Assembly: GCA_013812655.1 (NCBI GenBank)
Contig: JACCTC010000161.1
Coordinates: forward strand, 1 to 48,746
Direction: 5' to 3'
DNA from: Deltaproteobacteria bacterium
Lineage (GTDB): Bacteria; Myxococcota_A; Polyangia; Haliangiales; Haliangiaceae
Length of the DNA stretch: 48,746 nt
Shown here: positions 28,419-30,022 of the stretch, piece by piece
Position numbering within the stretch: the stretch's first letter is position 1
Layout of the letters: every line of letters starts with the position of its first letter
Translations under genes and position numbers: made by a program
The notes under the pieces: model-generated
The model's input: only the letters and a program-made list of their open reading frames with translations
Database searches by the model: none
What the model was told of the DNA's origin: nothing

Positions 28419-29237
28419 CTAGAGCCCGCCGGACAGCGCGTCGACGTCGCCGAGGCACCCGGCATCGAACAAGATCGTGTTCGCGCTGAGCACGTACTGC
28501 GTCGCGAACGCGGCCATGTCGCTCGCGCCTTCGTTCTGCCAGTACATGACACAGCTGTCGTTCGTGCAGTGCGCGCCGTGCGGGCCATCCTGGTGCGCCG
28601 AGGTCAGCGCGACGCCGTTGTTGACGAGCCCGATCGCGTGGCCGAGCTCGTGGACCAGCGTCGACTGCTCGACGAACCGCTGGATGTTGCCGATCGCCGA
28701 GGACGACGCGATCACGTCCTTGAACATCGCGATCACGCCGGTGCTGCCGAGCGAGACGCCGAGCACGCCGGCCTTCGGGCCGACGTCATCGGTGAACCGC
28801 CCGCTGACGAACACCACGTAGTACGTCTTGAGCCCGGGCACGTCGTGCTGCGAGCGGTGCGCGGCCGCGATCGCGAGGATATCGGCGACCGTCACCTGCT
28901 CGTCGGGAATCGCGCCGATGTCCTCCATGTTCGCGGTCGTCCGCGGGATGCCGAGCATCTTCTTGCCGGCGAACAGCCGGTTGATGTTCGCGTGCGACAG
29001 ATCGAAGGTGTCGCCAAAGCCGGGCATCGGCCCCGTGTACGGCGCCTCGCCGGTCTCGTAGTCGATCTCGACCGAGACCCGCAGGACACTCGGATCGAAG
29101 ACCGAGCCACTTGCCGTGCCATCGCCGGGTGGTGCCGCATCGATCGGCGCGTCGTCGCCGCCGCCGCCACCGGAGTTGCCCCCGAAGTTGCACGCGCCGA
29201 GCAGCGCGGCGATCGCGGCGCCGTGCGTGACCTTCAC
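28419..29237 (-). CDS. Zinc metalloprotease lipoprotein, second of a tandem pair
   Basis: A 272-residue lipoprotein (lipobox LLGAC) starting at a GTG that overlaps the stop of its upstream paralogue (GTGA), with ggagg just before it. The active site reads HELGHAIGL, but the canonical metzincin third His at position 11 is Asn. Instead, 17 residues later comes HGAHC, then CxxxxC and VMYW, giving a HCx4CxM pattern like archaemetzincin with an insertion. Several His in that loop could be the third zinc ligand. Paralogue of the neighbouring gene. Activity is inferred. Confidence 0.82.
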   Translation of the reverse strand: MKVTHGAAIAALLGACNFGGNSGGGGGDDAPIDAAPPGDGTASGSVFDPSVLRVSVEIDYETGEAPYTGPMPGFGDTFDLSHANINRLFAGKKMLGIPRTTANMEDIGAIPDEQVTVADILAIAAAHRSQHDVPGLKTYYVVFVSGRFTDDVGPKAGVLGVSLGSTGVIAMFKDVIASSSAIGNIQRFVEQSTLVHELGHAIGLVNNGVALTSAHQDGPHGAHCTNDSCVMYWQNEGASDMAAFATQYVLSANTILFDAGCLGDVDALSGGL

Positions 29238-30022
29238 GGTCCTCCCGTCAGCGCGTCGACGTCCCCGAGGCATGCGCCGTCGAACAGGATCGTGTTGCCC
29301 GCGAGGACATATTTCTGCGCGAACGCGGCAGCATCGCTCGCCCCTTCGTTGAGGTAGTACATGACGCAGGCGTCGTTGGTGCAGTGCGCGCCGTGCTCGG
29401 TGTCCTTGTGGTCGACCGTCGGTTCGACGCCGTTGCCGACGAGGCCGATCGCGTGCCCGAGCTCGTGCACGAGCGTCGATTGCTCGACGAAGCGCACGAC
29501 GTTCGGGAACGCCGGCACGCTCGTCGTCCGGATCACGTCCTTGAACATCGCGATCACGCCCGTGCCGCCGAGCGACACCCCGAGCACCGTGGGGCGCACG
29601 CCGCCGCCATCGGCGAAGTGCCCGCCGACGAACAGCACGTAGTACGATTTTCCGCCGGTGCCGTCCCGCAGATCGCGGTGCGCGTTTGATAGGGCAAGCA
29701 AGTCGGCGCTCGTGAGCTCCTCGTCGGCGACCGCGCCGATGTTCTCCATCGCGCCGACCACGCGCGGGATCGTCAGCTGCTTCTTGCCGGCGAAGACGCG
29801 GTCGATGTTCGTGACCGTGACATCCATCGTGTCACCGAAGCCGAGGATCGGCCCGGTGAACGGCTCCTGGCCGTCCTCGAAGTCGATCTCGATCACCACG
29901 CGCGTCACGCTCGGATCGAACACCGTCGCGGGATCCGGCGTGTCATCGCCGCCTCCACCACCACCGCCGCCCGGCGAGCCGCAGGCCGCGAGCATCGCCA
30001 CGACCGCGAGGATCCGGTACAT
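29234..30022 (-). CDS. Zinc metalloprotease lipoprotein, first of a tandem pair
   Basis: A 262-residue lipoprotein (lipobox MLAACG, then a Gly run). It shares the same domain as the next gene: FDPSVTRVVIEIDFEDG, FGDTMD, RVFAGKK, SLGGTGVIAMFKDVI and the site HELGHAIGL...HGAHC...CVMYY. The third metzincin His is again displaced by a loop of about 17 residues. Near-identical blocks over the whole mature length mark a tandem duplication. The ATG at 30022 precedes the signal. Both are expected at the cell envelope. Confidence 0.82.
   Translation of the reverse strand: MYRILAVVAMLAACGSPGGGGGGGGDDTPDPATVFDPSVTRVVIEIDFEDGQEPFTGPILGFGDTMDVTVTNIDRVFAGKKQLTIPRVVGAMENIGAVADEELTSADLLALSNAHRDLRDGTGGKSYYVLFVGGHFADGGGVRPTVLGVSLGGTGVIAMFKDVIRTTSVPAFPNVVRFVEQSTLVHELGHAIGLVGNGVEPTVDHKDTEHGAHCTNDACVMYYLNEGASDAAAFAQKYVLAGNTILFDGACLGDVDALTGGP

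Follow-up and report, generated by a model that had tools for sequence, protein, structure and literature searches.

A tandem pair of predicted bacterial lipoproteins with an interrupted metzincin zinc motif, probably related to archaemetzincins

Which residue completes the zinc site of a metalloprotease when HExxHxxG is not followed by the expected third ligand? This question is raised by two adjacent genes, encoding P0001 and P0002, in the 48,746-nucleotide contig JACCTC010000161.1 (the window, i.e. the whole stretch of DNA that was analysed) from the 8.1-Mb draft assembly GCA_013812655.1 of a Deltaproteobacteria bacterium of the family Haliangiaceae, to which Myxococcota/Kofleriaceae are closest. 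In both proteins we observed HELGHAIGL, with a residue other than His at the canonical third-ligand position, and further downstream H-x-D-x-x-HGAHC-x4-C-V-M, as the initial annotation had pointed out. Nineteen residues separate the conserved Gly from the proposed third His, versus 2 in canonical metzincins; the insertion therefore amounts to 17 residues. The best explanation as a whole, which we consider quite probable, is that each gene encodes a metzincin-clan zinc endopeptidase with a single domain, exported and lipid-anchored, in which His213 (P0002 numbering, used throughout) is the third ligand, reached after a 17-residue excursion of the chain, and whose fold is nearest to that of the archaemetzincins. 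The elements concerned are located as follows.

29234..30022 (-): P0002 gene, upstream, predicted exported lipoprotein metzincin, 262 residues, ATG start
28419..29237 (-): P0001 gene, downstream, paralogue of P0002, 272 residues, GTG start
29453..29467 (-): P0002 HELGH (H186, E187, H190), invariant in the 49-member alignment
29387..29443 (-): P0002 residues 194-212, the 19-residue segment between Gly193 and His213, with the invariant G198 and D207
29384..29386 (-): P0002 His213, proposed third zinc ligand, the sole downstream His found in all members
29360..29383 (-): P0002 C214-x4-C219-V-M221, family Cys and Met-turn
29261..29272 (-): P0002 C251-x-x-D254, counterpart of the archaemetzincin CxxC region
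28638..28652 (-): P0001 HELGH
28572..28628 (-): P0001 19-residue segment from the conserved Gly to the third His
28569..28571 (-): P0001 His equivalent to P0002 His213

The candidates were compared in an alignment of 49 members, chosen for HExxHxxG, C219 and M221 and not for H213. HExxH with a Gly three residues past the second His is present in 49 of 49, and the family has no contiguous His or Asp ligand three residues past that Gly. H186, E187, H190, G193, G198, D207, H213, C219, M221, Y222, E226 and D254 are invariant. H205 is replaced by Tyr in three of the 49 members and H210 by Asn, Tyr or Lys in six, and both were rejected as third ligand on account of these substitutions; H213 is never replaced. 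L054, which lacks C214, C219 and C251 and lies outside the alignment since it is devoid of C219, retains H213 as GSH-T. In addition, H213 stands 8 residues before the Met-turn Met (H213-x7-M221), the canonical distance, as in archaemetzincins and nearly all the matrixins sampled. Because of this conservation and spacing, we chose H213, the last His of HGAHC, over the His of HxD and the first His of HGAH as the likely third zinc ligand.

Profile comparisons gave the same position. With hhalign, the alignment to archaemetzincins (probability 95, E = 2.8e-8, 153 columns) contains a 17-residue gap directly before H213, and that to matrixins (M10, PF00413) contains the same gap, with the Met-turn aligned and H213 opposite the third His. 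When the inserted segment was deleted in silico, the median hidden Markov model (HMM) score rose from 12.7 to 32.9 bits with the archaemetzincin profile, from 11.7 to 28.8 with M10 and from 11.4 to 22.2 with M43, the gain being largest with the first of these three metzincin profiles; removal of 17 residues elsewhere, as a control, had no effect. The gap, the alignment of the third His and the in silico deletion therefore place the 17-residue insertion after the Gly and before the third ligand.

Two other invariant residues have to be weighed. D207, within the inserted segment, is kept in every aligned member, and snapalysins and igalysins use Asp as their third ligand (PMC12237041). A snapalysin- or aspzincin-like site closed by D207, with H213 in a structural role, is nevertheless unlikely: the Asp of snapalysins and igalysins sits in a contiguous motif whereas D207 lies 14 residues past the Gly, it is H213 and not D207 that stands at the canonical distance from the Met-turn Met, and two independent profiles align H213 with the third His. 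The second residue, E226 (in NEG), would be the third ligand if the proteins were gluzincins, the group in which the Flavobacterium lipoprotein elastase FP0506, whose motif is different, was placed from a conserved downstream Glu (PMC6414381). This we regard as highly unlikely; the Glu is lost in several members outside the alignment, such as L009 (MYWAYSQ), L081 (MYWMNSR), L088 and L089, for which reason E226 was rejected, while the best structural matches are metzincins and the C-x-M of the Met-turn is at the canonical distance.

The family to which the pair belongs was observed in about 75 sequences, whose sources include Myxococcota, Bdellovibrionota, Bacteroidota and Leptospirae, and lipoprotein signals are predicted by inspection in nearly all of them. 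Within the taxonomic family, 10 of 30 genomes contain relatives, and within the phylum 48 of 379 do, a few being weak partial matches. A scan of species genomes, resting on two peptide patterns and not exhaustive, returned 51 loci, including Bdellovibrionota, Bacteriovoracia, Bacteroidota, Leptospirae and Thermodesulfobacteriota. Among 75 sequences filtered by a pattern that demands H213 preceded by an Asp, and C219 and M221 as well, the Gly-to-His segment has 19 residues in 71 and 20-21 in the remaining four; evidence for H213 that is less subject to filtering comes from the 49-member alignment and from L054. Since this fixed spacing recurs across several phyla, the split arrangement is not due to chance.

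Searches of Pfam, NCBIfam, PADLOC, PHROGs and PDB sequences with P0001 and P0002 gave no match above cut-off; the 49-member profile found chance-level matches only in the PDB, and a plasmid search with the relative L042 gave none. The pair belongs to a coherent bacterial family covered by no Pfam or NCBIfam model. The proposal of the initial annotation, a separate metzincin-like clade that carries a small insertion, is supported by recurrence, spacing and profile alignments, and no described family with such an insertion, which would have spoken against that proposal, was cleanly matched among the Pfam and NCBIfam models. In the literature searched we found no paper on a bacterial family of this kind, which does not imply absence elsewhere, and the strings GLVNNG and GLVDNG appeared in no paper that a search had listed. 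One family member (L061, L085) has a reading frame broken inside the inserted segment, corresponding to a pseudogene or an assembly error.

AlphaFold2 models were obtained for P0002 (predicted local distance difference test, pLDDT, 88; predicted template modelling score, pTM, 0.85) and for the relative L038 (pLDDT 90). With Foldseek, the archaemetzincins 2x7m, 3lmc and 3zvs occupied ranks 1-4 for one model and ranks 1-3 and 7 for the other, with ulilysin, ADAMTS and snake venom metalloproteases coming after them; the best PDB matches had target-normalised TM scores of 0.56-0.65 and E values of 2e-5 to 9e-4. For these predicted models, all the best matches are metzincins. The archaemetzincin model NF033823 was matched weakly by 41 of the 49 members (best E = 8.1e-10); P0001 and P0002 score about 16 bits against a cut-off of 145, and neither has an M54 match (PF07998) in Pfam. 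All parts of the strict M54 motif HExxHxxGxxHCx4CxM are there, with 17 residues inserted. In a tree built with the insertion removed, the family and archaemetzincins group together (90/68), the family (87/60) standing outside the clade of the archaemetzincins (100/99), which were sampled from one phylum. By the strict definition the family is outside M54, as the contiguous motif and the CxxC are lacking. The family likely consists of exported metzincins that are sisters of the archaemetzincins, with which it probably shares ancestry and mode of action. The resemblance to archaemetzincins noted at the outset is thus borne out by Foldseek, the NCBIfam near-matches and the weakly supported tree. 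Of the suggested HMM comparison with M8, M10 and M54, one part succeeded, placing the insertion before the third His; it did not tell archaemetzincins from matrixins, and there was no M8 match in Pfam.

Some observations weigh against our explanation. The branch joining the family to the archaemetzincins is not strongly supported, and hhalign did not separate archaemetzincins (95.2) from matrixins (95.0), so that profile comparison was set aside as a means of choosing between the two. D207 is no less invariant than H213, and in some metzincins the third ligand is known to be an Asp. Furthermore, we know of no activity for any family member. CarG of Myxococcus is an inactive archaemetzincin homologue that has lost the Glu, and one could imagine that the present proteins likewise have a degenerate site and act as non-enzymatic binding or regulatory proteins, especially as no contiguous HExxHxxGxxH is found in the family. 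The archaemetzincins AfAmzA and MkAmzA were themselves inactive in standard assays (PMC3427221). We find such a loss of activity quite unlikely, since H186, E187, H190, H213 and M221 are invariant across very divergent members, as expected for an active enzyme, and the family, unlike CarG, keeps the Glu.

Our preferred reading, an active metzincin closed by H213, can be compared with known systems. Archaemetzincins (MEROPS M54; NF033823, PF07998) share with the family HC-x4-C-x-M with identical spacing, the best fold matches and a CxxC with which C251 is aligned. They are cytosolic and of obscure function, whereas the family members, predicted to be exported lipoproteins, have the 17-residue insertion, three of the four Cys in most cases, 29 residues before the C-terminal Cys instead of about 17-20, and scores far under the family cut-off. 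To our knowledge, leishmanolysins (M8) are the only other published protease family with an insertion at the same spot. Theirs, which separates the third zinc-binding His from the conserved Gly, comprises 62 residues and was called unique (PMC4580569, PMC11957388); it is much longer than the 17 residues found here and is not followed by HC-x4-C-x-M, and leishmanolysin 1lml only reached Foldseek rank 35 for one model (probability 0.11). Matrixins lack the Cys signature and the insertion and give a weaker fold match. Igalysin IgAse (M64) is a large multidomain protein with a contiguous HExxHxxxGxxD and no insertion; some relatives of the pair resemble it by an Asp at the family position. Separately, we observed that the Myxococcota archaemetzincins L106, L109, L110 and L115 have a canonical contiguous motif and apparent N-terminal signal peptides, as if exported, and that the archaemetzincin-like L111 and L113 have HH for HC at the third His (GLGHHDDPACVM) and lack the first structural Cys.

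Archaemetzincins bind a second zinc through Cx4CxMx17CxxC (PMC3427221). In the family, C214, C219 and C251 are present in most members, i.e. three Cys instead of four, and only L038, L048 and L050 also have C248, which restores the CxxC. C214 and C251 are lost jointly in five members, and a second subgroup has mostly Asp at 214 with an extra Cys at 176. The three Cys in most members, the four in L038, L048 and L050 and the joint loss indicate that the cluster is a reduced counterpart of the archaemetzincin Cys4 site. It may bind a structural zinc or form a disulfide, as the joint loss is compatible with both; the Asp that takes the place of C214 speaks for a metal site. In IgAse, the equivalent place below the Met-turn holds a structural metal, for which the protein uses three Cys, among them the Cys at the first Met-turn position and the C-terminal one, together with an acidic family residue (PMC12237041). 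The loss of all three Cys in L054 suggests that C214, C219 and C251 act together.

From the sequences, we infer a site in which the catalytic zinc would be held by H186, H190 and H213, with E187 most likely acting as the general base that activates the zinc-bound water, by the ordinary metzincin mechanism. The Met-turn C219-V-M221 would lie beneath the metal. After the conserved Gly, the chain would make its 17-residue excursion (GLVxNGVxxxxxHxDxxHGA) before returning to the third ligand, the inserted segment forming a loop that borders the active site; the invariant G198 and D207 suggest that this loop has a fixed shape, and D207 perhaps supports H213. The archaemetzincin Cys4 site would have its counterpart in C214, C219 and C251, joined by D248/D254 or, for a few relatives, by a fourth Cys. 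Through its lipid anchor the enzyme would be kept at a membrane, exposed either to the periplasm or to the exterior.

The layout of the pair involves three further elements, the signal peptides being located by sequence inspection.

29234..29237 (-): GTGA overlap, TGA stop of the P0002 gene and GTG start of the P0001 gene
29981..30022 (-): P0002 signal peptide, lipobox LAAC ending at Cys14
29190..29237 (-): P0001 signal peptide, lipobox LGAC

The GTGA coupling announced for the pair is thus recovered, and its lipid anchoring is predicted, both proteins having a short signal peptide with a lipobox Cys and then a Gly/Asp-rich linker. An alternative P0001 reading frame from the ATG at 29273 is longer, with an added Arg-rich N-terminus; the GTG start is preferred as it gives a proper lipoprotein signal. 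P0001 and P0002 are 65% identical, and their G+C content at third codon positions (0.90-0.93) is like that of real genes of the same genome. Tandem copies were also seen in G242 and G087; since most relatives are single-copy, the pair is probably a lineage-specific local duplication. The divergent substrates suggested for the two proteins in the initial annotation are a conjecture.

In the window, the pair is adjoined by two tandem M16 peptidase genes followed by a DUF4344 putative metallopeptidase gene (24168-28406, + strand), so that several unrelated metallopeptidase genes cluster around it. A third metzincin-like gene (36675-37913, - strand) combines the canonical HELGHALGFRHEH with a Big_7 domain; its C-terminal tail (Gly-rich, Cys, hydrophobic, Arg-rich) is reminiscent of a MYXO-CTERM sorting signal. 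The gene for a small lipoprotein that has a glycogen-binding-like domain (30115-30588, - strand) adjoins a divergent GH15-like hydrolase gene (30746-33112, + strand). The latter recurs near two close relatives, L014 and L018, and no other conserved neighbour was found; gene context therefore gives no hint of a substrate.

Metzincins are recognised by a contiguous HExxHxxGxxH/D, and families with a split motif are therefore missed by curated models; the present one is spread over several phyla and has no Pfam or NCBIfam model. We give an even chance to a broader proposal, that this is a distinct and widespread Gram-negative metzincin family, an exported sister group of archaemetzincins, in which the third ligand sits on the conserved HxDxxHGA loop and this loop, with its invariant D207, serves as a flap or second-shell element at the active site, as a second, independent solution to motif splitting after leishmanolysin. 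The family would connect the cytosolic archaemetzincins to an exported lipoprotein branch, and would provide a natural case for testing how much interruption the metzincin zinc motif tolerates.
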